Source: Jiangella sp. DSM 45060 (GTDB taxonomy: Bacteria > Actinomycetota > Actinomycetes > Jiangellales > Jiangellaceae). From it: a DNA stretch of 64,000 nucleotides. The position numbers and the translations under genes were made by a program. How positions within the stretch are numbered: the stretch's first letter is position 1; each line of letters starts with the position of its first letter. A model generated the notes under the pieces. It made no database searches. It worked only from the letters and a program-made list of their open reading frames with translations, and was not told where the DNA came from. Positions 30,405-45,481 of this stretch are shown here, piece by piece. The stretch spans positions 1,178,001 through 1,242,000 of the forward strand of contig NZ_LT629771.1 in the NCBI RefSeq assembly GCF_900105175.1. Direction: 5' to 3'.

Positions 30405-32432
30405 GTGACCAACGATCAGTACGAGTTCGTTCGTGAAGCCGACGAGTGGACGCTGAGGCGCGACGGTGCCCCGGTCCTGCGAGTGCTGGGGCGCGCGGGG
30501 GCCAGCGACAGTTTCACGCCGATCGAGAACGGGTTCTGGCTGTGGGAGCGCGTGTGCGACGAGCCGACCGACTCGATGCGGATGGAGCTCGAGACGGCGT
30601 TCACGCCGGAATTCACGATGGTGCCGGGCATCAGCTACAACGGCAACGGCTGGGGAGACACACCCGAGTACGTGGGTGACCGGGCCTCCGACGGCACACC
30701 CTGGACGTGGGCGTGGCACCGCTGCACGATCCCCGCGTGCACCTACTCGGCCGCGGGTGGGCAGGCGGTCGTGCTGTCGGGAGCGCTCGACGACGCCGTC
30801 AGCTGCTCGCTCACGCGCGAGGGCGACGTCGAGCGGCACACGCTGCTGTGGCCCGAGGTCGAGGGCCCGCAGGTGCTCCATCGGCACTTCTGGAAGGACC
30901 CCTACCAGGGCACGATGGAGCCGAGGCGCACCTTCCAGGCGGTGATCGGCGGATTCGCGGCACCACGGGCGCACCTGGACTACCAGCCGCTGCTCGACTT
31001 CGCCTTGCGGTACTACGGCCACCCGGTCCAGGAACCGCTCGGACCGCAGCGGCTCTACGACCTGAGCATCGCGTACACCAAGTTCCTCTGGACCCAGGAG
31101 CCGGACGGTTTCATCAGCATCAACCGAGGCTGCGGCTGGCACGAGGACGTCACCGCCTTCGGCAAGACGAGGATCTCCAAGTACGAGATCGGCTGGGTCG
31201 GTCAGAGCGCGTCGCTGTCGGTGGCGCTCCTGGAGGAGTATCTGCGCAGTGGCGACGAGGACGCCCGCGACAAGGGGCTGAGCGTGCTGGACCACTGGTG
31301 CCGATTCGTGCTGCCCAACGGCATGATCCGCATCAAGTTCAACATCTCTCCCGAGGTGGACGGCGTGATGGAGACGCCCGTCGAGAAGCTGGTGCAGAGC
31401 AAGGAGCCCGGGAAGGAACTCCCGTACGAGGAGTACCACCCGGAGTTCGTCACCGGCGCCGACGGCAAGCGCATCTTCCCGATCGACGCCTGCAACCTCG
31501 GTGGTGCGGCGGAGTACCTGCTGGACGCCTATCTGCTGGCGGAGCGGGCCGGAACGCCGCGTGAGCCCTACAAGAGCGCCGCGCTGGGGATCTGTGACTT
31601 CGCACTGCGCGAGCAGAAGGCGAACGGGCAGTTCGCCAAGGCCTGGAATCCGGACGGCAGCGTGTTCCGCGAGGGCGGCACCGTCGGCTGCTTCCTCGTT
31701 CCCGCATTGCTGAGGGCGTACGAGGTCACGCACGAGGAGCGTTACCTGGAGAGCGCGAAGCGCGCGTTCGACTTCTATTACGACGAGCTGCTGCGCGACG
31801 GCTACACCACCGCCGGTGCGCTCGACACCTACTGCATCGACAAGGAGTCCTCCAGCCCGCTGTTGATCTCGGCGCTCCGCCTGCATCGGCTCACTGGTGA
31901 GCATCGCTACCTCGAGGCGGCCGAGACCACGGCGTGGTACCTGAGCACGTGGATGATGCACTTCACCGTGCGGTACCCGGAGGGCAGCCTTCTCCGCCAG
32001 GTCGGCATCGACACCTTCGGCATGACGTCGGTGTCGACGGCCCACACCGCGGTCGACCAGTACTCGCTGCACGACGTGCTGTCGTTCCTGGAGCTCGCCG
32101 AGGTCACCGGCAACGCGCAATGGCGCGAGCGGGCGCTGGCGTTGTGGGTCGGGGCCAACCAACTGGTCTCCGACGGCACCCTGACGGTCCGCGGCCGGGT
32201 CCGGCCGGCGGGCTCCCAGGACGAGGCCATCTTCCACACCCGCTGGGGCCGGCCGGTCGTGACCGAGTTCAAGCCGTGCGAATGGCTGCCGGCCTGGCCG
32301 ACGGCGTTCCGCCTGGAGGTGCTCCGCACGCTCGAGAGCTGGGACGCCCTCGAGAAGGGCCTCCCATCGATCGCCGGGGAGATCGACGTCCCGCGGCTGC
32401 CGGAGCCGGCAGCGCCGCTGGGCGTGAGTTAG
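30405..32432 (+). CDS. Six-hairpin glycosidase-like (alpha/alpha)6 protein, 675 aa
   Basis: The N-terminal ~200 residues look like a beta-sandwich (WTLRRDGAPVLRVLGR, GFWLWERVC). The following ~450 residues are helical repeats typical of an (alpha/alpha)6 toroid: YDLSIAYTKFLWTQ, NRGCGWHEDVTAF, SASLSVALLEEYLRSG, ALRLHRLTGEHRYLEAAE and DQYSLHDVLSFLELAEVTG. Such folds occur in GH families 88, 105, 127 and others; I cannot assign one. No signal peptide is present, so it is cytosolic and probably acts on imported oligosaccharides. GTG 30405 has GAGGA 6 bases upstream. It is the first gene of the locus. Confidence 0.8.
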   Translation: MTNDQYEFVREADEWTLRRDGAPVLRVLGRAGASDSFTPIENGFWLWERVCDEPTDSMRMELETAFTPEFTMVPGISYNGNGWGDTPEYVGDRASDGTPWTWAWHRCTIPACTYSAAGGQAVVLSGALDDAVSCSLTREGDVERHTLLWPEVEGPQVLHRHFWKDPYQGTMEPRRTFQAVIGGFAAPRAHLDYQPLLDFALRYYGHPVQEPLGPQRLYDLSIAYTKFLWTQEPDGFISINRGCGWHEDVTAFGKTRISKYEIGWVGQSASLSVALLEEYLRSGDEDARDKGLSVLDHWCRFVLPNGMIRIKFNISPEVDGVMETPVEKLVQSKEPGKELPYEEYHPEFVTGADGKRIFPIDACNLGGAAEYLLDAYLLAERAGTPREPYKSAALGICDFALREQKANGQFAKAWNPDGSVFREGGTVGCFLVPALLRAYEVTHEERYLESAKRAFDFYYDELLRDGYTTAGALDTYCIDKESSSPLLISALRLHRLTGEHRYLEAAETTAWYLSTWMMHFTVRYPEGSLLRQVGIDTFGMTSVSTAHTAVDQYSLHDVLSFLELAEVTGNAQWRERALALWVGANQLVSDGTLTVRGRVRPAGSQDEAIFHTRWGRPVVTEFKPCEWLPAWPTAFRLEVLRTLESWDALEKGLPSIAGEIDVPRLPEPAAPLGVS

Positions 32433-32534: not shown

Positions 32535-32588
32535 TTGACCTCCTCCACGAGGACCGCTACGGTGACGTTAGAACAACTCAATTGTTCT
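32535..32588 (+). promoter_or_regulatory. Promoter and operator of the secreted GH43-like gene
   Basis: A -35 TTGACC (32535-32540) and -10 TACGGT (32558-32563) are 17 bases apart. A perfect inverted repeat, AGAACAA and TTGTTCT around CTCAA (32570-32588), sits on the predicted start of transcription, a classical repression site. It differs from the operator at 30277 and 44581 but shares CAACTCAAT (32574-32582) with the gntR upstream region. Confidence 0.7.
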
Positions 32589-32658
32589 TACATTTGCACC
32601 GCAGGCGACATCCACTCTCGTGGAGACCCGAGCACCCACTCACCCCCGTGGAGCCCCG

Positions 32659-35600
32659 ATGACGCGTGTGTCCACCACTCTGGCCGCGATGGTCGCTGCC
32701 GTTGCCTTGCTCTTCTCCGGTCTCGTCGCATCGTCGGCCTCGGCCGCCGATGAGACGGTCGTCTACCTCGACCAGGCCGGCGGCGACGACACGTCTCCTG
32801 GAACCGACCCTGACCAACCCCTGCGGACGCTCACCCAGGCGCTGCGGAAGGTCACTCCTGACGGCGGCCGCATCGTCATCATGAGCGACTACCGGCTCGA
32901 ACTCTCGATCACCGAGCCCGCGCATACCGGCGACATCCTCGTGACCAGCTCCGACGGCGAGATGGACTATCCGGGGCGGCTGATCTTCGGGGACACGCCG
33001 TTCATCGAGTACAACCTCGCGGGACCCACGACCTTCGCGGACCTGGGGGTCGTCACCTCGCAGTGGGCGGTCTTCGCCGCGAACTGGAACCCGATCACCT
33101 TCGGTGAGGGCGTCGCGATGGAGAGCACCCCGACGGCGGGCCGGCGCCAGGTGTTCGTGGTGGGTGGCTATCACGGGCCGTCCGCGGAGGACACCGTGCT
33201 CGACGCCGACTCGCACATCACGATCAACTCGGGGACCTTCTACAAGGTGACCGGCTTCAGCCGCGGCAAGGGCGCCGGGACGCAGACCTACACCGGTACC
33301 TCTCACATCACGCTCAACGGCGGCATCGTCCAGGAGATCTTCGGGGCATCGCTCGAGAACCACTACTCGGGCAGCACCGAGATCACGATGACGGGCGGCC
33401 GCGTGGGCGCCTTGCACACGGCCGGCGACGTGACCCGCTACCTCGTCGGCGGTGCCGATGTCGAGCTCACCGGCGGTCACGTCAACACGATCGACATCAA
33501 CAACGTGGTCGAGGATGTCGACCTCACGCTCGACGGCGTGGACTGGGACGCCATCGAGGCCGAGAACGCCTGGGGCGGGGAAGGCCGTCACCAGCAGATC
33601 CTCGAGTTCGCAGCGGTCCGGACGGTGCGCTTCGCGGGACAGCACCACACGGCCGACCAGGTCGCGGCGCTCAGGGAGATCTTCGACGTCCTGATCAACA
33701 CCGCGGACGTCCACGTCAGTGCCGACGGCGGCGGCAGCGCATGCACCGCGGAGAGCCCGTGCGGCAGCCTGGAGACCGCGCTCGGCCTGCTCGCCGCTGA
33801 CGGCGGGGCGATCACGATTCACGGCGACGTCGCCTGGGACGTCGATGCGGCCACGCTGGCCGCCGGCGCAGGACGGGTCACGTTCGTCGGTGACGGTGCG
33901 GCATCGATCGCCTTCCCCGCCGGCGCCGAGCTCGCGATCGCACGTGACGTCACCTTCAGCTCGGTCGAGCTGGCGAACGCGGGCGCGTTGGAGCTGTTGG
34001 CCGACGGCGTGGACCTGACGATCGGCGAGGGCGTCAGCGTGGCCGACGGCAGCCAGGTCGGTGTGGCCGGCAGCAGCGACGGCGCCTCGATCTCGATCGA
34101 GTCCGGCGAGTTCGCCCGCGTCGCCGGCAGCACCGATCTGACCGGCGACTTCGACGGCACGACGGACGTGACGATCGCTGGTGGTGAGGTCGAGCAGGTC
34201 TGGGCGGGCACGGACTCGGCGCACGACGTCGCTGGTGCGACGGTGACCGTCGCCGGCGGTGAGGTCGGGACGCTCCACGCCTCCGCGGGCCGGATCACCG
34301 AGACGCTGATGGCTCGCTTCCTCGGGGGCAGCGTCCGGAACGCGCAGCTCGAGCGTGCTGACGGCGAGGTCAGGATGCGGCTCGGCGAGACCGAGATCGC
34401 GGAGATCTCGATCGCCGACTGGGCGGCTGCCGACGGCGCGGAGCGCGCGCTGACGCGGCTCCCGGGTGCCGACCAGGAGGTGATCGACCAGATCGCGGCG
34501 GCCTTCGACGGCATCACCGAGGACGAGGTCGTGTACCTGTCCGCCGGCGGCGATGGTGACGGCAGCAGCCCGACCCACGCCAGCGGTGACCTGAGTGCGG
34601 CGATCGCCGCACTGTCCGGTGACGGGCGCGTGGTGGTGACGGACCAGTACACGGTCGAGGAGGGGTACGACGTCGACGACCACAGCGCGCACGCCGTGCT
34701 GACGACCGACGACGGCGACATCGACTTCGCCGCCGACGGTGCGGCGCTGCAGATCGAGGGCGCGCTGCGGCTGGGCGGTCCGACCACGTTCGAGAACGTG
34801 CTGCTGCAGTCCCCGGCCGTCGACGGCACCATCTACGCGATGGGTGAGCCCTTGACGATCGGCGCCGGCGTCGACACCGCGTTCACCCGGCGCGGCGAGA
34901 CCTACCTGAGCATCGTCGGCGGGAGCAACGACACCGAGCCCGCACCGGTCACGTCGGTGACGGTCGAGGGCGGGCAGTGGGCCGGACTGCGTGGCGGGTC
35001 CGCCAGCACCGCGGCGGTGACGACCGGCGCCGAGGTGTCCGTCCAGATCGACGGCGGCACGTTCTACGGGCCGGTCGTCCTCTCCCACCGTGGCGAGAGC
35101 TCGGGATCGGCGTCCGCCACGATCGACGGCGGGACCTTCATGCGGGGTGTCTACGCCGTCCACGAGGAGGACGGCAGCGACTACGCGGCCGACTACGACG
35201 CGGACATCACGGTGAACGGCGGTCAGTTCTGGTCGACGATCGCGCCGGCGAAGTCCCGTTCGACGGTGCTGGCCGGCACCTTCGACCTCACGGTCACCGG
35301 TGGCGACTTCGGCCACCTCACCGACCTGCTCGGGACGGAGGGCTACGCCGGCGACATGGCCAGCGCCCTGCACATCGATCCCGCGATCGAGGCGGCCGTG
35401 CCGGAGGGTGAGCTGACGTTCACCAACCCGCTCGTCCGAGCGGCCGACCCGTACATGTTCACCCACGAGGGGCAGTACTACTTCCTGGCGACGTCCAGCA
35501 CCACGATGGCGCTGCACAAGGTCGCCAACCCCTCGGACCTGTCCGAGTCCGTGGGTTCGGTGATCTTCGCTCCGGAGGACATGCAGAACCTGTGGTCGCC

Positions 35601-37053
35601 GGAGATCCATCATCTGACAGCCGAGGAGGTCGGCGAGGAGAACGCCGGGTGGTACCTGTACCTGTCGGCGACCGACCCGAACGATCCGGCTGCCGAGGGC
35701 CAGCGCCAGTACGTGCTCAAGGCGCTCGACGGCGATGATCTGCTGGGCCGCTGGGGCAACCCGGTCACCGGCGAGGTGAACGTCCCGCAGCGCATCACGA
35801 ACGCGGATGATCCCGACTTCAACACCGACGAGTTCGTGGCGGGCATCTCGCTCATGCGAGTCGCCGGCGAGACCTACATCACCTACGTCGCCGAAGAAGG
35901 ACGCGGAACGGCCGACTTCCACCAGACGATCAACATGAGCCACATGGTCAACCCGTGGACCCTCGCCGGTGAGCCGAGCATCATCACCAAGTCCGAGTAC
36001 GACTGGGAGATGCACGGGTACGCCCAGTCGACCAGCGACCCGAACATGTGGTGGCCGAAGGTCGTGGAGGGCGGTACCGCCGTCTACGGTGACGACGGCG
36101 AGGTGTTCATGGCGTACTCCGCCAGCGGCTACTGGACCATCTACTACGCCATCGGCTATCTGAGGTACACCGGCGGCGACCCGATGGACGCCTCGAACTG
36201 GGTCAAGAACCCGACCCCGATCATGAGCAAGAACACCGAGGTCACGGGCCCGGGTACCGGTCCGAACTTCGTCGACCACGAGGGCACCGACTGGTTCCTG
36301 TTCCAGGCTCGCCCGGGCCCGGACACCCAGACGGCCCGGTACGCCTTCATCGAGCCGTACACCGCAGACGCCGACGGGTTGACGATCGGCGACGGCTCGG
36401 GCCATCCGGCGCCGCTGGGGACCGAGTACACGTTGAGCGTGAACCCGATCCCACTGAGCGAGAAGATCAGTGGGTTCACCCCCGCCGATGACGTACGCCC
36501 GGACGTGTCCCTGGTATCGCCGTCGGCGGCGGGGCCGATGCCCGAGGTGGCGATCCAGGTCGATGCGACCGACGACGTCGGGCTGGCGAGGATCGTGGCG
36601 AACGTCTACGACGGCGACACGCTCGTGAAGAGCACGTCGTCCACGGCCGGCGGCGCCGCCTCGGCCACGCACACCGCGACCGTGACGCTGCCCGACGGCC
36701 GGTACACGATCCGGTACAACGCGCACGACCTGGCGGGCAACGTGTCGCGGACCTCGACCTTCGACGTCACCGCGGACACCACGGCGCCGACGGTCACCGT
36801 GAAGGAGGGCCCGCGGTTCACCGTCGAGGCGGACGGCGGGGGCTACGCACAGGTCAGCTACAAGCTCCACGACGCCGGGAAGATCGACAAGGCCGTGCTG
36901 AACGGCACCGTGATCGACCTGGTCGACGACGTCTGGTCGGACCTGAACGCCGTCCGGCCCGGCGCCTTCGGTGCCGCCGTCAGGGGCGAGAACACGCTGG
37001 TCGTGTACGACGTCGCGGGTAACGGCGAGGCGGTCACGTTCACCCTGGAGTGA
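32659..37053 (+). CDS. Large secreted multidomain protein with GH43-like catalytic domain, 1464 aa
   Basis: A Sec signal peptide (apolar core LAAMVAAVALLFSGLVA, cleavage near ASA, residue 29) is followed by three related beta-helix-like modules starting near residues 34, 351 and 624. Each opens with a strand, a GG-rich turn and an SLETAL/TLTQAL-type helix, and then repeats TGG/DGG strands. Residues ~921-1275 form a five-bladed GH43-like domain: NPLVRAADPYMFTHEGQYYF (the Asp general base), LWSPEIHHL, and WWPKVVEGGTAVY (candidate Glu acid). An Ig-like module (PDVSLVSPSAAGPMPEV) and a final beta domain (TAPTVTVKEGPRF) complete it. It probably cleaves a plant or microbial polysaccharide outside the cell. 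ATG 32659 has GTGGAG. There is no LPXTG anchor. Confidence 0.85.
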   Translation: MTRVSTTLAAMVAAVALLFSGLVASSASAADETVVYLDQAGGDDTSPGTDPDQPLRTLTQALRKVTPDGGRIVIMSDYRLELSITEPAHTGDILVTSSDGEMDYPGRLIFGDTPFIEYNLAGPTTFADLGVVTSQWAVFAANWNPITFGEGVAMESTPTAGRRQVFVVGGYHGPSAEDTVLDADSHITINSGTFYKVTGFSRGKGAGTQTYTGTSHITLNGGIVQEIFGASLENHYSGSTEITMTGGRVGALHTAGDVTRYLVGGADVELTGGHVNTIDINNVVEDVDLTLDGVDWDAIEAENAWGGEGRHQQILEFAAVRTVRFAGQHHTADQVAALREIFDVLINTADVHVSADGGGSACTAESPCGSLETALGLLAADGGAITIHGDVAWDVDAATLAAGAGRVTFVGDGAASIAFPAGAELAIARDVTFSSVELANAGALELLADGVDLTIGEGVSVADGSQVGVAGSSDGASISIESGEFARVAGSTDLTGDFDGTTDVTIAGGEVEQVWAGTDSAHDVAGATVTVAGGEVGTLHASAGRITETLMARFLGGSVRNAQLERADGEVRMRLGETEIAEISIADWAAADGAERALTRLPGADQEVIDQIAAAFDGITEDEVVYLSAGGDGDGSSPTHASGDLSAAIAALSGDGRVVVTDQYTVEEGYDVDDHSAHAVLTTDDGDIDFAADGAALQIEGALRLGGPTTFENVLLQSPAVDGTIYAMGEPLTIGAGVDTAFTRRGETYLSIVGGSNDTEPAPVTSVTVEGGQWAGLRGGSASTAAVTTGAEVSVQIDGGTFYGPVVLSHRGESSGSASATIDGGTFMRGVYAVHEEDGSDYAADYDADITVNGGQFWSTIAPAKSRSTVLAGTFDLTVTGGDFGHLTDLLGTEGYAGDMASALHIDPAIEAAVPEGELTFTNPLVRAADPYMFTHEGQYYFLATSSTTMALHKVANPSDLSESVGSVIFAPEDMQNLWSPEIHHLTAEEVGEENAGWYLYLSATDPNDPAAEGQRQYVLKALDGDDLLGRWGNPVTGEVNVPQRITNADDPDFNTDEFVAGISLMRVAGETYITYVAEEGRGTADFHQTINMSHMVNPWTLAGEPSIITKSEYDWEMHGYAQSTSDPNMWWPKVVEGGTAVYGDDGEVFMAYSASGYWTIYYAIGYLRYTGGDPMDASNWVKNPTPIMSKNTEVTGPGTGPNFVDHEGTDWFLFQARPGPDTQTARYAFIEPYTADADGLTIGDGSGHPAPLGTEYTLSVNPIPLSEKISGFTPADDVRPDVSLVSPSAAGPMPEVAIQVDATDDVGLARIVANVYDGDTLVKSTSSTAGGAASATHTATVTLPDGRYTIRYNAHDLAGNVSRTSTFDVTADTTAPTVTVKEGPRFTVEADGGGYAQVSYKLHDAGKIDKAVLNGTVIDLVDDVWSDLNAVRPGAFGAAVRGENTLVVYDVAGNGEAVTFTLE

Positions 37054-37176: not shown

Positions 37177-37245
37177 GCCTCAATCAGCAGCAGCGTCAGG
37201 TGTGCGTCCCGCACGTCGGTGCTGTCCGGACAAGGAGGTCTGACG

Positions 37246-38607
37246 GTGGTCAGCAGCAATCGACAGCTCAGCCGGCGCGGTCTGCTGGGTGGAGCCCTCG
37301 GGCTCATGGCGGGATCGAGCCTGCTCTCGGCCTGCGGCGGCTCCGGCGACGGTGGCGGCGGGAGCGCGAACCCGCCCGACGATCAGGGGTCCGCGGACGA
37401 GGGCGAGCTGGTCGTCTGGGGTGGTGTGGCGCCCGAGAGCGGTCCGCAGGAACTGGTCGCCGCGTTCATGGAGAAGTACCCCGGCATCAAGGTCGAGTAC
37501 GTCCGGTACGTCAACGACGAACAGGGCATCCTCAAGCTCGACACCGCGTTGCAGGGTGGCGTCCCGATCGACGTGTTCTTCTCGTACGGGACCGTCGACG
37601 TGGTCCGTCGCTCGCAGGCAGGCCTTGCGCTGGACCTCACCGACCTCGCGCGCCAGGACGACATGGCGAAGGCGTTCGTCCAGGACGAGCCGATCAGCAC
37701 CCTGGTCGACGGCAAGCTCTACTCGATCCCGACGACTCACTTCCCGAACTTCGTCGTCATCAACCAGGACGCGATGGACGCCGCCGGTATCGAGATCCCG
37801 TACGACTGGACGGTGGACGACTATCACCGGGTCGCGCAGGAGTTCAAGGCTGCCGGATTCGACGTCGGCGCCTACAACGTGCCTCGGCATGCGGCCGCCG
37901 GCCTCGGCGGTGACTACCTCTACAAGGAGGGCGGCACCGAGTCCAACTTCGACCACCCGCTCTTCCGGCAGCGGCTCGAGCAGACCCTCGCGATGGAGGA
38001 CGACGGCTCGATCTTCACCCAGGAACGGATCTCGGCCGAGGGCATCGGCGGTTACGCGCAGAACTACTTCCTCGACGGAACGTTCGCCATGATGCTCGAC
38101 GGAACGATCGCGATCCGGTACGTCAAGAACCTCGAGGAATACCCGCACGACTTCCGCACCACCTTCCGGCCGTACCCGGGTCTCGTGACCGGCGAGCCGT
38201 ACTTCAATCCCGGCGTGCGCGGCGACGACGTCCAGATCTCCTCGAAGAGCCAGTACCAGTCCGCGGCGTGGACCTTCGTCAAGTTCTGGATGGGCGAAGG
38301 AGCGCACTTCATGTCGCCCTCCGGCAAGGTCTCGCCGGCGCAGTACGACAACCCGACGGACGAGCTGTACGAAAGCCTGTTCGGCCCGGACGCCGACGCC
38401 CTCTTCGACGTCGAGGCGTTCGAGAAGACGTTCTTCGCCCCGGAGCCGCCGCTCTCCGTGCGCAGCATCACGACCGCCTACACCGAGATCTCCCAGATCA
38501 AGGAACAGATCGAGGGCGAGATCCGGTTGCGCACCAAGTCGATCGACGACGGTCTCGCGGAGATGAAGCAGAAGGCCGACGAGGCCATCGCCGCCGCGCT
38601 GTCCTGA
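37246..38607 (+). CDS. Sugar ABC transporter substrate-binding lipoprotein, 453 aa
   Basis: This family 1 (MalE/UgpB-like) binding protein has a twin-arginine signal (LSRRGLLGGALG) with lipobox LLSAC followed by a Gly/Ser-rich linker. The mature domain has VVWGGVAPESGPQELVAAFMEKYPGI, and LYSIPTTHFPNFVVINQDA, typical of carbohydrate binders. GTG 37246 is preferred since AAGGAGG is 7 bases upstream; the ORF otherwise extends to 37219. It delivers a mono- or oligosaccharide to the two permeases downstream. No ATPase is encoded in the locus, so a shared MsiK-type ATPase is implied. Confidence 0.93.
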   Translation: MVSSNRQLSRRGLLGGALGLMAGSSLLSACGGSGDGGGGSANPPDDQGSADEGELVVWGGVAPESGPQELVAAFMEKYPGIKVEYVRYVNDEQGILKLDTALQGGVPIDVFFSYGTVDVVRRSQAGLALDLTDLARQDDMAKAFVQDEPISTLVDGKLYSIPTTHFPNFVVINQDAMDAAGIEIPYDWTVDDYHRVAQEFKAAGFDVGAYNVPRHAAAGLGGDYLYKEGGTESNFDHPLFRQRLEQTLAMEDDGSIFTQERISAEGIGGYAQNYFLDGTFAMMLDGTIAIRYVKNLEEYPHDFRTTFRPYPGLVTGEPYFNPGVRGDDVQISSKSQYQSAAWTFVKFWMGEGAHFMSPSGKVSPAQYDNPTDELYESLFGPDADALFDVEAFEKTFFAPEPPLSVRSITTAYTEISQIKEQIEGEIRLRTKSIDDGLAEMKQKADEAIAAALS

Positions 38608-38610
38608 CGG

Positions 38611-39579
38611 ATGACACCTGTGACTGTAACCGAAGAGCTGACCAAGCCGAGCGGAGGGGCGGCGAAGCCGTCCCGCGCCCGGAAACCGGGCCGACTCGTC
38701 AACGGCTACCGCTGGTGGGTGCCGTGGATGTTCCTGGTCCCGATCGTCGTCCTGGTGCTGGCGTTCCTGGTGGTCCCGCTGTTCTCGGGCCTGTTCATCG
38801 CCTTCACCGACTGGAACGTCGTCTCCGGGATCGAGGGCATTCGGTGGATCGGCCTGGCCAACTTCCAGGAGCTCTTCCAGGACGACATGTTCTGGTCGTC
38901 CATCGGCAGGACGTTGTTCTACGCCGGCATCGGGACGCCGCTCACGGTCGCCGTCGGGATGGTGCTCGGCCTGGCGCTGAACCAGCCGATGCCCGCGCGC
39001 GGCCTGATCCGGGCGATCTTCTTCCTTCCCGCCCTCGTCAACACGATCGCGGCGGGGACCGTGTGGCTCTCGTTGCTCCACCCGACGTCGGGACCCGTGA
39101 ACCAGGCGCTGACCGCACTCGGGATCGAGAACCCGCCCACGTGGTTCGTCTCGCAGGACTGGGCGCTGCCGGCGATCGTGATCATGTCGGTGTGGATCAG
39201 CGCCGGATACGTGGCGATCCTGGTCATCGCGGCGTTGCAGGACATGCCGCCCGAGCTGTACGAGGCCGCCAAGATCGACGGAGCTGGGGCGTTCCGGCAG
39301 TTCACCACCGTCACCCTCCCGGGGCTGGTCCCGATCCTCACCTTCCTGCTCATCACCTCGTTCATCGGGCGATCGCAGACGTTCGGACTGATCCAGTTCA
39401 TGACCGGAGGTGGCCCGGGCGATTCGACCACCGTGCTCTCGTACTACATGTACGAGGCCGGCTTCCACTCGTACCGCTTCGGTTACGCGGCGGCGATCGG
39501 TGTGATGAGCATGCTGGGCGTGCTGGTGCTGTCGGTGGGGCTGTTCCGTCTGCAGCGGGGCCGGGGACTGTACACATGA
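38611..39579 (+). CDS. Sugar ABC transporter permease (MalF-like), 322 aa
   Basis: This is a CUT1-type permease with about six transmembrane helices after a cytosolic N-terminus. The first helix is MFLVPIVVLVLAFLVVPLFSG, then FYAGIGTPLTVAVGMVLGLAL and the EAA loop ELYEAAKIDGAGAFRQFTTVTLP, which docks on the ATPase. It starts 3 bases after the binding-protein stop; the SD is weak, so translation is probably coupled. Confidence 0.93.
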   Translation: MTPVTVTEELTKPSGGAAKPSRARKPGRLVNGYRWWVPWMFLVPIVVLVLAFLVVPLFSGLFIAFTDWNVVSGIEGIRWIGLANFQELFQDDMFWSSIGRTLFYAGIGTPLTVAVGMVLGLALNQPMPARGLIRAIFFLPALVNTIAAGTVWLSLLHPTSGPVNQALTALGIENPPTWFVSQDWALPAIVIMSVWISAGYVAILVIAALQDMPPELYEAAKIDGAGAFRQFTTVTLPGLVPILTFLLITSFIGRSQTFGLIQFMTGGGPGDSTTVLSYYMYEAGFHSYRFGYAAAIGVMSMLGVLVLSVGLFRLQRGRGLYT

Positions 39580-39589
39580 GGAGCCACGA

Positions 39590-40477
39590 ATGAGCACGGC
39601 GTCCGTCGAGACGGCGCAGCGCGCGCCCCACCCGGGCCGGATCCGGCGCCGGCGCAGGGCACGCATCGCGTACTGGACCCGCGGGCTGATCATGTCGCTG
39701 CTCGCGCTGCTGTTCCTGACACCCTTCCTGTGGATGCTGTCCTCGGCACTGAAGCGGAACGGGGACATCTTCTCGGTGCCGACGCAGTGGATCCCGGATC
39801 CGCTGGTGTGGGACAACTTCATCGACGTCTGGACCGGCGAACGGTCCATGCTGCGCTACTTCAGCAACTCCACCATCGTCGTGGTGGCGACCATTCTCGG
39901 CCAGCTCTTCGTGGTCACGCTCGCCGGCTACGCCTTCGGGCAGCTGAAGTTCAAGGGCCAGAACGTGCTGTTCATCGCCTTCCTGGCCACGTCGATGGTG
40001 CCGACCCAGTTGCTGCTGGTGCCGCGCTTCATGTTCTTCAGCCAGATCGGCCTCTACGACACCCTCATGGCCCTGATCGTTCCGGGCCTGGCCTCGGTCT
40101 TCGCGACGTTCCTCCTGCGGCAGCATTTCGCCGCGGCGCCACGCGAGCTCGGTGAGGCCGCACGTATCGACGGTGCGAGCGAGTGGCGGATCTTCTTCCA
40201 CATCTACCTGCCCCTGGCGCGGCCGATGCTCGCCGCCCTGGCGATCCTGATCTTCGACTCGACGTGGAACGACTACGAGAGCGCACTGATCATGATCACG
40301 GACGAGGCGAAGTACACGGTGCCGCTCGGGCTGACCCGCTTCATGTCGGACGACGGCACGGTGTCGCTGGGGCCGGCGCTGGCCGGCTCGGTCTCCTCGA
40401 TCATCCCGGTGCTGATCATCTTCCTGATCTTCCAGCGGCATTTCATGAAGTCGATGGCGCGAGCCGGCCTACGTTGA
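39590..40477 (+). CDS. Sugar ABC transporter permease (MalG-like), 295 aa
   Basis: This is the second CUT1 permease. It has LLFLTPFLWMLSSALKRNGDIF, a typical MalG opening, AFLATSMVPTQLLLVPRFMF and the EAA loop ELGEAARIDGASEWRIFFHIYLPL. About six membrane helices are predicted. SD GAGGAG lies before ATG 39590, 10 bases after the first permease gene. It forms the channel with the MalF-like protein. Confidence 0.93.
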   Translation: MSTASVETAQRAPHPGRIRRRRRARIAYWTRGLIMSLLALLFLTPFLWMLSSALKRNGDIFSVPTQWIPDPLVWDNFIDVWTGERSMLRYFSNSTIVVVATILGQLFVVTLAGYAFGQLKFKGQNVLFIAFLATSMVPTQLLLVPRFMFFSQIGLYDTLMALIVPGLASVFATFLLRQHFAAAPRELGEAARIDGASEWRIFFHIYLPLARPMLAALAILIFDSTWNDYESALIMITDEAKYTVPLGLTRFMSDDGTVSLGPALAGSVSSIIPVLIIFLIFQRHFMKSMARAGLR

Positions 40478-40496: not shown

Positions 40497-41486
40497 ATGA
40501 CGGCTGCGGCCGCCGAGCACCAGGTCACGTCGGTCTCCGGGTGGGAGGCGCTGCGGCTGTCGACGAGCGATCTCGAGGTCACCGTCCTTCCGGGCAAGGG
40601 CGCGGACATCACCTCGATCCGCGATCGCGCCGGCGACGTGGAGCTGCTGTGGACCCCGCGCTGGGGTCTGCGGCCGCCGTGGGCGCTGCCAATGCCCGGG
40701 GCGCCCGATGCGCTGGCCCTCGACCGCTCCGGTGGTGGCTGGAACACGATGTTCCCCAACGCCGGCCGCGCCTGCGTCGAGCACGGCGTCGACTGGGGCT
40801 TCCACGGCGAGACCTGGCTCGCTCCCTTCGACTGGGAACCGGAGCCGGGCGGGGTTCGCCTGACGACGGCGCTGGCCCGCAGCCCGTTCACCGTCAGCAA
40901 GCTCGTGCGCGTCACCGGCAACCAGGTCGTGGTCACCGAGTCCGTGACGCACGTGGGGGCGCGGCCCGTCGACGTGCTCTGGTGTCAGCACCCGGCGTTC
41001 GGCGCACCGCTGATCGGGCCGGCGACCACGGTCGCGATCACCGGATGCGTGGTGCACCCGGACCTGCCCGACGACATCCCGGCCACCACCGCGCCGCCAC
41101 GCTGGCCCGAGCACACCGAGGTCGACGGCGCCCACCTCGATCTCTCCCGGCTCGACGCCGCGGGGAGCGGTGGGGCGCGGCTGGCGTTCCTCGGCTCGTT
41201 CGAGGACGAGCAGGTGCGCGCGCGGATCCACAACCCCGAGCTCGGGCTCGGGGTGGAGCTGGCCTGGAGCAGGCAGGACTTCCCCTTCGCCTGGTACTGG
41301 TACGAGTCCGGCGGGCGACAGGACTACCCCTGGTACGGGACCGCGCACTCGCTGGCGCTGGAGCCGGCCTCGGGCTATCCCAGTGGGGTGCACCGGGCGC
41401 GCCGGCTCACCGGCACCGAGCTGACGATCCACCCGGGGGAGACCGTGACCAAGTCTGTGGCGATGACGGTCGTACGCGGCGACTGA
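40497..41486 (+). CDS. Aldose 1-epimerase-like (galactose mutarotase fold) protein, 329 aa
   Basis: The protein has the beta-sandwich mutarotase fold: LEVTVLPGKGADITSIRDRA near the start, GWNTMFPNAG, CVEHGVDWGFHGETW (the family's conserved His region), VLWCQHPAFGAPL and ALEPASGYPSG with the late Glu. This matches the DUF4432/epimerase-like group of catabolic loci. It may equilibrate anomers of the imported sugar. SD GGAGG is good. It is the last plus-strand gene of the ABC operon and converges on the SDR gene with 14 bases between. Confidence 0.85.
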   Translation: MTAAAAEHQVTSVSGWEALRLSTSDLEVTVLPGKGADITSIRDRAGDVELLWTPRWGLRPPWALPMPGAPDALALDRSGGGWNTMFPNAGRACVEHGVDWGFHGETWLAPFDWEPEPGGVRLTTALARSPFTVSKLVRVTGNQVVVTESVTHVGARPVDVLWCQHPAFGAPLIGPATTVAITGCVVHPDLPDDIPATTAPPRWPEHTEVDGAHLDLSRLDAAGSGGARLAFLGSFEDEQVRARIHNPELGLGVELAWSRQDFPFAWYWYESGGRQDYPWYGTAHSLALEPASGYPSGVHRARRLTGTELTIHPGETVTKSVAMTVVRGD

Positions 41487-41500
41487 GCCGCCGGGGCGCC

Positions 41501-42289
41501 TCAGAAGGGGTCGTCCAGCATGGAGTCGATCGCGCCGTCGATGGACTGGCCGCCGTCGACGGTGATCGTCTGGCCGACGATGAAGCGACTCTTGGACTCG
41601 TCGGCCAGGAACACGGCGAGCTCCGCGATGTCGGCGGGCGTCCCGCCGCCCCCGAAGGGGATCTTGCGGTTGAAGCCGTTGAGGTCGCGCTCGGAGTAGC
41701 GGTCGAGGGCCTTGGTGTGGATCAGGCCCGGGGCGATGCAGTTGACGTTGATCCCGTACTCGATCAGTTCCACCCCGAGCGACTTGGTCATCATGTTCAG
41801 CCCCGCCTTGGCGGCCGAGTACGGCAGCGCCTTGCGGCGGACCCAGGTGACGTCGCCGTGGATCGACGAGATGTTGATGATGGCGCCGTGCACCTCCTGA
41901 GCGACCATCGACTTCGCCGCGGCACGCGCGCAGTAGGACGCCGCGCTCAGGTTGAGGGCGATCTGGCTGTCCCAGTACTCGGTCGGCATGTCGATGAAGC
42001 CGCCGGGCGGCATGCGCAGCGCTCCGCCGGCGTTGTTGACGAGCACGTCGATGCGCCCGAAGCGTTCGACGAAGCGCTCGACCATGGCGTGGGCCTCGCC
42101 CGCATCGGCGACGTCGGCGGCGAAGATCTCCGCCTCGACACCGAACTCCCGGCACTGCTGCGCGACCTGCTCCGCGTCCGCTGCCGAGGATCTGTGGTTG
42201 ACGCCGACGTGGTACCCCTCGCGGGCGAACGCCAGCGCGCAGCCGGCGCCGATCCCGCGCGAGGCCCCGGTGATCAGGGCGGCCTTCAT
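41501..42289 (-). CDS. Short-chain dehydrogenase/reductase, 262 aa
   Basis: This is a classical SDR with ALITGASRGIGAGCALAF (nucleotide loop), NNAGG, the catalytic ISSIHGDVTW Ser and YSAAKAG Tyr-x-x-x-Lys, and the terminal ITVDGGQSIDGAI. Cofactor preference leans to NADP(H), judged by HRSSA after strand 2. It is presumably a dehydrogenase for the sugar or polyol of this locus. Its ATG at 42289 overlaps the stop of the MBL gene (ATGA). With the MBL and Gfo/Idh genes it forms the minus-strand operon driven from 44592. Confidence 0.93.
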   Translation of the reverse strand: MKAALITGASRGIGAGCALAFAREGYHVGVNHRSSAADAEQVAQQCREFGVEAEIFAADVADAGEAHAMVERFVERFGRIDVLVNNAGGALRMPPGGFIDMPTEYWDSQIALNLSAASYCARAAAKSMVAQEVHGAIINISSIHGDVTWVRRKALPYSAAKAGLNMMTKSLGVELIEYGINVNCIAPGLIHTKALDRYSERDLNGFNRKIPFGGGGTPADIAELAVFLADESKSRFIVGQTITVDGGQSIDGAIDSMLDDPF

Positions 42290-43170
42290 GTGTGCTCTCC
42301 CTCGGCGGCCTCCTGGTAGGCGGCGACCGTGTGCATTGGTAGGAACAGTTTCTCCGGCTCGACCCCGCCGACGCTGCCGACCAGCGCCCGCGCGGCCGCA
42401 TGCGGGTCGGTGACACCGGCCGCCGCCATCCCGGCCACGAACCCGCGATCGTGCTCGTAACAGCCGATGCAGGTGGCGAGGAAGCGGCGGGCCGCCTCCT
42501 CGCCGATGGCGGTCTCGCCCAGTGGCAGGTAGGGGTGCCCGCAGACGATGTTCCGCACCGGCAGCGCCAGCAGGCGGTGCAACGAGTCCAGGTACCGGGC
42601 CGGGTCGAACAACAGCGCGCAGCCCTGCGAGATCGTCCCGTTGAGCTGCAGCGAATCGCCCGTGACCAGGGTGCCGGAGCGGACGTCGAAGAAGCAGCAC
42701 GCATCGGTGTCGTGGCCCGGCGTGTGGATCACGCGCAGCGGGCCGACCAGGTCACCGTCGTCGAACAGGAGGTCGGGCTCGACGCCGTCGAGCACGGGCG
42801 GCGGCGCCGGGCTGTGCTCGGGAAACCTCGCGCGGATCTCACGGCTGTACGCGAGCGGGTCGCGCATGCGTGCCGCCGACTCGGAGAACACGCCCAGTTT
42901 GATCGACGGTGCGATCTCGCGCATGCGTGCGATGCCGCCGACGTGGTCACCGTGGATGTGGGTGGCGAGTACCCAGCCGACGTCGGAGAGCTCGAGCCCC
43001 AGCTCGGCCAGTGCCGGCACGATCGTGGAGTCCACGGTCTCGCCGGAACCCCCGCTGTCGACGAGGATCGGTGGACCGTCGCCGAGCACCAACGTGACGC
43101 CGGTCCACACGCCGGTGAACGGAACCCTGAGCAGGAAGACGCCGTCGGCGATGGGGGTGAAACGCTCCAC
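42286..43170 (-). CDS. MBL-fold metallohydrolase, 294 aa
   Basis: This metallo-beta-lactamase fold protein has the full metal motif THIHGDHVGG, the Asp-containing LVDSGGSGETV strand, HTPGHDTDACCFFD, VTGDSLQ and the distal NIVCGHPYLP histidine. Members hydrolyse lactones, thioesters or phosphodiesters; in this setting a lactonase acting on an oxidised sugar is a plausible guess. Start ATG 43170 lies 3 bases after the Gfo/Idh stop. There is no signal peptide. Confidence 0.9.
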   Translation of the reverse strand: MERFTPIADGVFLLRVPFTGVWTGVTLVLGDGPPILVDSGGSGETVDSTIVPALAELGLELSDVGWVLATHIHGDHVGGIARMREIAPSIKLGVFSESAARMRDPLAYSREIRARFPEHSPAPPPVLDGVEPDLLFDDGDLVGPLRVIHTPGHDTDACCFFDVRSGTLVTGDSLQLNGTISQGCALLFDPARYLDSLHRLLALPVRNIVCGHPYLPLGETAIGEEAARRFLATCIGCYEHDRGFVAGMAAAGVTDPHAAARALVGSVGGVEPEKLFLPMHTVAAYQEAAEGEHT

Positions 43171-43173
43171 GGG

Positions 43174-44445
43174 CTACGCCCCGAGGCCGATGGCGTCGTC
43201 GATGCCGGCCTGGTAGTCGCCGACGGAGCCGTCGAGGACGTCGTCGACGGTGACGATGCGGCCCCCGGCGGCGCCGGATTCCATCATGGCGTAGCAGACC
43301 GCGATGGCCCGGATGCCCTCCTCGAGGCCGACCTCCGGCGGGGTGCGGGTCGCGATGGCGTTCCCGAACTCGGCGTACTCCACGGCGAGCAGGAGCCGGT
43401 CGACGGTCTCGAAGTCGAGGCCGTACGCGGTCGCCTGCGGGCCGCCGAACAGCGCGGCGGTCACGTCGTCGAGCCGGAACCGCGGGACCAGCGGGAGGAT
43501 CTCCGCACCCGTGTAGGTCTTGCTGCGGTCCAGGGTCAGCACGAGCGGCCGGCCGCTGCGGTCCTTGGGAATCTCCACCGCCCCCGCCGAGCCGTGGACG
43601 CTGCGGGCCCAGCTCTCACGGCCGTGCTCGGCGCGGTTCTCGGCGTACTGCCCGACGGCGCCCGAGGCGAAGTTGACCATGGCGAACAGCGCGTCGTCGG
43701 CCGTCGCCTCGAACTCGGCCGGCATCGCCGCCTGGGACTGGCCGTACACGCCTCCGGGGTTCGAGGCCGGGGCGCCGCCGGTCGCCGCCGGGTTGTAGCG
43801 GATCTTCTCGAACAGCCGCATCTGCGCGTAGACGCTGACGACGGGGCCTAGGTAGTACTCCATCATGTCCGTGTAGTGCGTGCCCGCGTCGAAGAGGATG
43901 CCGCTCTCGTCCTTCAGGTGACGCCACATCGAGATCGCCATCAGGTTGCCGCCGCCACCGGAGCTCTGGTGGAAGTAGCGCGGCTCGCCGAGGACGCCGT
44001 CGTCGATGAGGGCCTTGACGAGGCGGTTCGTCGGGTCGCGGCGGAAGTTCTCGGCCACGCTGAGGATCCGGTCCGACCCGGCGACGGCGTCCTTCAGCTG
44101 CCGGGCGGCCGCGAGCGTGAGCCCGACCGGCTTCTCCACCATCACGTCGAGCCCGAGCGACATCGCGTCGGCGGCGAGGCTGTGATGGAACCGCGGCACG
44201 GTGGTGATGTCGACCGCCACCGCGCCGAGGCGCCGCGCCGAGTCGAGGTCGGCGCACGGGGCCGGGCGGCGCCCGAGCCGCGCCTGCGCCTCATCGGCCA
44301 GGCGCTCGGCGCGAGCGGGGTCGACGTCGCAGACGGCAACGAGGTCGAACGGATTCAGATCGGCCCGCTCGAGTTCGGCCAGGCCGAACAGGTGGCGTGT
44401 CCCCATGCCGCCGCAGCCGACGATCGCGACGGGAATCCGTTCCAT
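43174..44445 (-). CDS. Gfo/Idh/MocA-family oxidoreductase, 423 aa
   Basis: The Rossmann motif AIVGCGGMGTRHLFGLAE and the catalytic EKPVGLTLAAARQLKDA lysine-proline segment define the family. The C-terminal domain holds DAGTHYTDMMEYYLG, the usual position of the active-site His. It uses NAD(P) to oxidise a sugar or cyclitol hydroxyl. SD AGGGAAGG precedes ATG 44445. It is the first gene of the minus-strand operon (Gfo/Idh, MBL, SDR), transcribed from a promoter whose -35 lies in the 22-base operator. Confidence 0.92.
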   Translation of the reverse strand: MERIPVAIVGCGGMGTRHLFGLAELERADLNPFDLVAVCDVDPARAERLADEAQARLGRRPAPCADLDSARRLGAVAVDITTVPRFHHSLAADAMSLGLDVMVEKPVGLTLAAARQLKDAVAGSDRILSVAENFRRDPTNRLVKALIDDGVLGEPRYFHQSSGGGGNLMAISMWRHLKDESGILFDAGTHYTDMMEYYLGPVVSVYAQMRLFEKIRYNPAATGGAPASNPGGVYGQSQAAMPAEFEATADDALFAMVNFASGAVGQYAENRAEHGRESWARSVHGSAGAVEIPKDRSGRPLVLTLDRSKTYTGAEILPLVPRFRLDDVTAALFGGPQATAYGLDFETVDRLLLAVEYAEFGNAIATRTPPEVGLEEGIRAIAVCYAMMESGAAGGRIVTVDDVLDGSVGDYQAGIDDAIGLGA

Positions 44446-44562: not shown

Positions 44563-44602
44563 ACGCTAATTGGCCAGAGCTTAATATGTCAATACATATT
44601 AA
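44563..44602 (-). promoter_or_regulatory. Promoter and 22-base palindromic operator of the Gfo/Idh operon
   Basis: On the minus strand, -35 TTGACA (44587-44592) and -10 TAGCGT (44563-44568) are 18 bases apart. The -35 lies within a perfect inverted repeat: TTAATATGT (44581-44589), CAAT, ACATATTAA (44594-44602). Nine-base perfect arms in such GC-rich DNA are very unlikely by chance. The adjoining gntR gene encodes the probable binder. Confidence 0.8.
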
Positions 44603-44635: not shown

Positions 44636-45382
44636 TCAGTTCTCCTCGAGCACGAGATCGATCGCGTAGCCGTCGGACCGGTAGACGTGCTCGGCATGCT
44701 CGACCGGCGCGCCGCCCGGCTCGAATGCCGTGCGGCTCAAGGCGATGACGGGGAGCCGGCCGGAGATCTCGAGCAACTCGCTCTCCTCCGCCGTCGGCAG
44801 CCGTGCCGAGATGGACTGGTGCGCGACCACGGAGCCGACGCCGTGATCGCGCAGCATCGAGTAGAGGCCCCGTTGCTCGAGCTGTTCCTGCGTGATCGAG
44901 ATGAACCGCGGCGGAAGCCAGTTCTGCATGATGGCCAGCGGCTCGCCGTCGGCGAACCGCAGCCGTCGCAGGGCGAGCAGCTCCGATTCCGGATCGAGGT
45001 CGAGAGCCCCCGCCGCCTTCGGGTAGCGCTCGTTCGCCCGGCTGAGCACCTTGGTGCTGGGGTTGCGGCCCTGAATCGACAGGTCCTCGTACAGGCTGCC
45101 CTTGCTCACGCGCCGGTGCACTCGACGACTGGTGACGAAGGTGCCGCGCCCCTGCCTGCGCACGAGCAGACCTTGGTCGACGAGGTGGTGGATCGCACGC
45201 CGAACCGTCGGACGAGACAAGCCCAGCCGTTCGCTCATGGCGACCTCGTTCTCGAACGGGTCGCCGGGCTGCGCCTGTCCACCTGAGATCGCCGCCGCCA
45301 GCTGCTCGGCGAGCTGGAAGTACAGCGGAATGGGCGAGGCGCGGTCGAGAGCCACTGGGACTACCGCTTCTCCTGCTGGCAT
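44636..45382 (-). CDS. GntR/HutC-family transcriptional regulator (UTRA domain), 248 aa
   Basis: The N-terminal winged helix has PIPLYFQLAEQLAAAI, EVAMSERLGLSRPTVRRAIHHLVDQGLL and RRQGRGTFV, standard for GntR. The rest is a UTRA effector domain (LRRLRFADGEPLAIMQNWLP, SRTAFEPGGAPVEHAEHVYR), so it belongs to the HutC subfamily, which senses sugar phosphates or histidine-like ligands. ATG 45382 is favoured because AGGG lies 5-8 bases upstream; GTG 45388 is the alternative. It probably represses the locus through the palindromes at 44581 and 30277. A weaker repeat, TGTCA / TGACA (45408-45425), lies in its own upstream region. Confidence 0.92.
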   Translation of the reverse strand: MPAGEAVVPVALDRASPIPLYFQLAEQLAAAISGGQAQPGDPFENEVAMSERLGLSRPTVRRAIHHLVDQGLLVRRQGRGTFVTSRRVHRRVSKGSLYEDLSIQGRNPSTKVLSRANERYPKAAGALDLDPESELLALRRLRFADGEPLAIMQNWLPPRFISITQEQLEQRGLYSMLRDHGVGSVVAHQSISARLPTAEESELLEISGRLPVIALSRTAFEPGGAPVEHAEHVYRSDGYAIDLVLEEN

Positions 45383-45481
45383 CTTCACCCTGTTCTGACG
45401 TTCAACATGTCAACTCAATGTGACAATAGCGGCGAGCCACATGCTGAGACAAGGAGGCGGGGCGGTAGCGGGCCCGGCGGT

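Follow-up and report, generated by a model that had tools for sequence, protein, structure and literature searches.

A secreted actinobacterial protein with three related beta-helix-like modules in front of a GH43-like domain

The window studied here is a stretch of 64,000 nucleotides from Jiangella sp. DSM 45060 (contig NZ_LT629771.1, positions 1,178,001 to 1,242,000), and its positions 32659-37053 encode a protein of 1464 residues, in which three mutually homologous modules precede a domain related to glycoside hydrolase family 43 (GH43). This domain order is real and conserved, and as far as we found it is apparently undescribed and assembled from known folds; a literature search in open-licence papers found no GH43 protein with tandem beta-helices. 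Our best explanation is that the whole is a secreted multimodular carbohydrate-processing protein, whose GH43-like domain would fold as a five-bladed propeller and has exo-alpha-1,5-L-arabinofuranosidases as distant relatives. Taken jointly, we consider this explanation about evenly balanced between right and wrong. The gene and its parts are as follows.

32659-37053, + strand: open reading frame of 1464 residues, ATG at 32659 to stop at 37053, with eight full-length family members
32659-32745, + strand: Sec-type signal peptide, residues 1-29, MTRVSTTLAAMVAAVALLFSGLVASSASA, recognised by inspection
32749-33708, + strand: module 1, residues 31-350, predicted right-handed beta-helix (homology, model and fold matches)
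33709-34521, + strand: module 2, residues 351-621, the least conserved of the three homologous modules, likely spacer
34522-35409, + strand: module 3, residues 622-917, homologous
35410-36483, + strand: GH43-like (GH43_26-related) domain, residues 918-1275 (PDB and profile matches, hhalign)
35446-35448, + strand: Asp930, predicted general base, in an ADP motif, invariant in 8/8
35842-35844, + strand: Gly1062, aligned with the pKa-modulating Asp of GH43 in most alignments, Gly in 8/8
36067-36069, + strand: Glu1137, probable general acid, VVEG in place of VNEG, invariant in 8/8
36487-36783, + strand: immunoglobulin (Ig)/FN3-like domain, residues 1277-1375, optional (Big_13, E 1.4e-7)
36784-37050, + strand: second C-terminal beta domain, residues 1376-1464, accompanying the Ig domain

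An open frame of 1430 residues also lies antisense to this gene (32578-36870, minus strand). It is most likely an artefact of high GC content and no gene.

Homology and fold of the modules

The original prediction proposed three tandem beta-helix modules, in each of which a strand leads through a glycine-rich turn to a helix of the (T/S)LxxAL type and then to GG repeats, and this succession is seen in the alignment. Smith-Waterman comparison gave z scores against shuffles of 14.3 for modules 1 and 2, 11.4 for modules 1 and 3 and 6.7 for modules 2 and 3. The real score was reached by none of 300 shuffles in any pair, and resemblance through shared composition was ruled out by these tests.

AlphaFold2, run with an input alignment of four rows, gave module 1 a predicted local distance difference test score (pLDDT) of about 70-87 over much of its length and modelled module 2 poorly, with a mean of 57 for modules 1-2 together. 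Foldseek returned no match for this model at E < 0.001, so the fold of module 1 is drawn from a second look with VIA-align. The top rows there were HxuA (Z 12.9 over 221 residues), tailspikes, AlgE4, PL6 lyases and pertactin, all of them right-handed beta-helices, which supports the same fold for module 1. Modules 2 and 3 would share it through their homology to module 1. Structure prediction has thus backed the beta-helix proposal for the first module, and the models of the other two are weak.

No family in Pfam or NCBIfam exceeded its cut-off on modules 1-3. PDB sequence searches (given below) were also empty, in agreement with the expectation that no known family covers residues 30-920.

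Unequal conservation of the modules

Across the eight members, invariant columns made up 56% of the core of module 1 (residues 131-300) and 55% of the GH43-like domain, and 45% and 26% of the cores of modules 3 and 2. Invariant polar or aromatic residues (counted as H, D, E, K, R, N, Q, W, Y, C, F) numbered 29 in the core of module 1 and 23 in that of module 3. Those of module 1 include H172, D178, D184, K196, R202, H216, E233, H235, Y236, H253, D257, R260, E285 and D286. Module 2 looks like a spacer because its core holds only 4. The protein is under purifying selection: compared with the G005 ortholog, the ratio of nonsynonymous to synonymous substitution rates (dN/dS) was 0.11 in the GH43-like domain, the most constrained part of the protein, 0.15 in module 1, 0.20 in module 3, 0.32 in module 2 and 0.71 in the C-terminal part. 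Modules 1 and 3 probably carry functional faces, and the three do not appear to be equal binding units, since module 2 is without the invariant polar residues of the other two.

Such conservation could also mean that catalysis takes place in the beta-helix of module 1, and perhaps in that of module 3, as a lyase, epimerase or glycosidase, the protein then being a two-step enzyme. This is the main rival explanation, and we regard it as fairly unlikely. The core of module 1 equals the GH43-like domain in conservation, and most of the module's fold matches are beta-helices that act on carbohydrates (PL6, AlgE4 and tailspikes), but no catalytic family was matched by sequence (Pfam, PDB chains) and conserved binding sites would look identical. 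Moreover, for the lyase-like modules CBM54 and CBM89 either activity was not seen or catalytic residues were not conserved. We prefer to see modules 1 and 3 as polymer-binding, because CBM54 of the chitinase ChiW and CBM89 of the xylanase CapGH10 are analogous; polysaccharide binding by the beta-helix modules is plausible on this analogy.

Relationship of the GH43-like domain

The closest solved relatives of residues 918-1241 were SaAraf43A (3akf, E 4e-16, matched over residues 918-1209) and AtAbf43C (9nxg, E 4e-11). Sequence and profile comparison related the domain to 5m8b as well as to these two, with a profile E of 9e-18 and an hhalign probability of 100%. The predicted GH43-like domain was confirmed in this sense, but it is no ordinary member: residues 917-1275 gave no match to PF04616 (Glyco_hydro_43) at E up to 10, a match which is a practical and not a defining criterion for GH43 (CAZy), and scanned relatives at 26-30% identity match this family at 1e-45 to 1e-80.

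The closest stand-alone relative had 34% identity over residues 921-1203. In a tree with nine relatives the domain branched off separately, on a stem 1.94 changes per site long, the placement being rough with this small sample. The model from module 3 to the C-terminus had a mean pLDDT of 47.5, and its best structural matches belonged to GH43_26, covering about 104-162 residues only; the first of them was 9nxj (Z 11.5 over 104 residues). For the subfamily, the closest solved relatives belong to GH43_26, and the domain stands on its own branch apart from the nine relatives sampled. The sequence comparisons suggest a deep branch, with 26-34% identity to the nearest relatives.

Catalytic residues and proposed function

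Asp930 was aligned to the GH43 general base in every alignment. Glu1137 was aligned to the general acid by hhalign and HMMER, and MAFFT placed it one residue off. In our explanation the GH43-like domain, as a presumed propeller, would most likely remove a sugar of pentose type or a related one, in exo manner, from a polymer or oligosaccharide. Modules 1 and 3 would hold the polymer via their conserved polar residues, as CBM54 and CBM89 do, and module 2 would be the structural spacer between them. The released sugar would enter the cell through the adjacent ATP-binding cassette (ABC) importer, and the SDR and Gfo/Idh enzymes encoded in this gene island would oxidise it.

Several results weigh against this explanation. 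Gly1062 occupies the position of the pKa-modulating Asp in three MAFFT modes, and HMMER against 5m8b and 5m8e likewise puts it there. The modulator Asp is essential, its change to Ala abolishing activity in AtAbf43C and SaAraf43A (PMC12493170). The models of modules 2 and 3 and of the GH43-like domain are of low confidence. The module profiles matched none of the PDB chains at E up to 1 and 10, the CBM54 and CBM89 structures included.

Alternatively, the GH43-like domain might have lost catalysis and become a sugar-binding propeller, making the protein a secreted glycan-capture device which feeds the ABC importer. The Gly at the modulator position, Thr1200 at the place of the GPGH-motif His and the missing PF04616 match would fit with this, and the adjoining toroid protein could provide hydrolysis. 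But the base Asp930 and Glu1137, the probable acid, do not vary among the members, the domain is the most constrained part, and its decay was rejected on the dN/dS of 0.11. An alternative hhalign alignment with a five-residue insertion brings D1057 (Glu in one member, G796) to the modulator position, and the GPGH His is dispensable for the activity of AtAbf43C (PMC12493170). We consider loss of catalysis rather improbable; the domain may be an altered but active enzyme or a binding domain, and the trimming enzyme is the reading we favour.

A further possibility, put forward tentatively, is that the domain founds a GH43 subfamily, or a family close to GH43, in which the catalytic site is rearranged and works in the absence of the canonical modulator Asp, and that the tandem beta-helices form a new family of carbohydrate-binding or catalytic modules. 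The apparent loss of a supposedly indispensable GH43 residue, replaced by Gly in eight constrained proteins, allows a direct test of the GH43 mechanism.

Another altered catalytic site was seen in a GH43 relative on a Bacteroides finegoldii plasmid (L038, 1396-2499), where Glu stands in place of the base and His in place of the modulator.

Family members and distribution

Three modules followed by the GH43-like domain were found in eight proteins, from three genomes of the source genus and four of Ruaniaceae. Two other genomes of the source genus hold full-length relatives (93% and 85%), and the relative in Occultella glacieicola is also full-length (80%). Members at about 76% and 58% occur in three further Ruaniaceae genomes, one genome carrying two copies. 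The scan of genome contigs found only Occultella, and whole-genome searches around it gave the remaining Ruaniaceae members. No further full-length member was present among 394 genomes sampled from the class. Scans of viral contigs with the module profiles gave no match, and one GH43 was found there; the plasmid search yielded nothing but GH43 relatives, with no credible match to the modules.

The nearest module relatives outside the family belong to large surface-type proteins in 4 of 149 Coriobacteriia genomes, with open frames of 1495-2381 residues. Two of them, L036 and L074, were read. They match the family profile at E 3e-12 through an N-cap and GG-repeat module akin to module 1, but their GG-repeat arrays are long, much longer than here, and no Pfam domain was found in L036. 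By this resemblance, modules 1-3 could be only a stalk or surface-adhesion element that keeps the enzyme in place, the Coriobacteriia proteins being the closest relatives outside the family. We think this quite improbable: the modules are N-terminal on a secreted protein without visible cell-wall anchor, and if modules 1 and 3 were a mere stalk, they would not keep so many polar residues invariant.

The C-terminal part

The two terminal beta domains of the original prediction are present as a Big_13 Ig-like domain, whose model gave FN3-like structural matches (Z about 8), and one further beta domain. The C-terminal module is optional because 4/8 members end just after the GH43-like domain and are without the Ig/FN3-like module. 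A copy of this Ig and beta module with 57% identity is located on a secreted-type protein of 919 residues in the same genome (L020 7426-10185, about 1.39 Mb), and it also occurs, in some cases in tandem, on other large proteins of the window's family and of Ruaniaceae.

Gene neighbourhood and regulation

The neighbouring island for sugar ABC import was seen in the loci examined, and its genes in the window are listed below.

30405-32432, + strand: alpha/alpha-toroid protein of 675 residues, putative glycosidase (weak GH127/GH88/GH76 toroid matches)
32570-32588, no strand: perfect inverted repeat AGAACAActcaaTTGTTCT, AGAACAA-N5-TTGTTCT, 0 mismatches, probable operator
37219-38607, + strand: sugar ABC transporter substrate-binding protein (SBP_bac_1, 1.7e-23)
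38611-39579, + strand: ABC permease (BPD_transp_1)
39590-40477, + strand: ABC permease (BPD_transp_1)
40497-41486, + strand: DUF4432 (mutarotase-like) protein
41501-42265, - strand: SDR oxidoreductase
42286-43170, - strand: metallo-beta-lactamase-fold protein
43174-44445, - strand: Gfo/Idh/MocA-type dehydrogenase
44636-45388, - strand: GntR/UTRA regulator

In Occultella and in G806 the gene has the neighbours that it has in the window, namely the genes for the substrate-binding protein, the two permeases and DUF4432. The Occultella island contains the substrate-binding protein in syntenic position with 78% identity, and the SDR and metallo-beta-lactamase genes come next there, as in the window; in G806 the importer, DUF4432 and toroid genes lie between two paralogs. 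Because of this shared gene set, the import island seems to be maintained or transferred as a whole across two actinobacterial families that are distant from each other. The conserved island gives a handle on the substrate.

The toroid protein of the window had a PDB match to GH76 at E 0.002 and no family above cut-off, and may represent an undescribed glycosidase family. The toroid protein of Occultella is a different one, encoded at the opposite side of the importer and sharing about 30% identity over 300 residues.

For the repeat upstream of the gene (32570-32588), 0.13 would be expected by chance at up to 3 mismatches. It stands in the same upstream place at the G005 and G014 orthologs, and so in all three source-genus genomes, and is degenerate in Occultella. 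A second perfect inverted repeat of 9 bp, TTAATATGTcaatACATATTAA (44581-44602), is located between the Gfo/Idh and GntR/UTRA genes, with none expected by chance; it is possibly the operator of the GntR/UTRA regulator.

Comparison with known systems

The Geobacillus GH43 arabinanase AbnA (PMC9110388) is likewise a secreted GH43 with several accessory domains. It differs in having the propeller first and three other accessory domains behind it, with no beta-helix mentioned.

Solved structures of beta-helix binding modules from glycosidases are rare. CBM54 of ChiW (PMC5132251) and CBM89 of CapGH10 (PMC8810776) are beta-helix modules that bind polysaccharide, with no catalysis found. Both are right-handed beta-helices N-terminal to a glycosidase, as the modules of the 1464-residue protein probably are, but they are single modules with a GH18 or GH10 partner, against three modules here. 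The module profiles showed no sequence similarity to them among the PDB chains (solved members only), and their structures were not among the VIA-align matches listed, an absence we counted neither way. The likeness would be functional, and family membership is unsupported by sequence. Three tandem beta-helix modules with a division of labour would be a new placement of a propeller enzyme on a polymer.

The GH43_26 enzymes SaAraf43A and AtAbf43C share with this protein the base Asp, the probable acid Glu and the presence of an accessory module on the same chain. Characterised GH43_26 enzymes are 49-63% identical to AtAbf43C (PMC12493170), whereas the domain studied here has about 26-34% identity to its nearest relatives and has Gly for the modulator Asp in most alignments. 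The accessory module of GH43_26 is a beta-trefoil CBM42, while those of the 1464-residue protein would be beta-helices.

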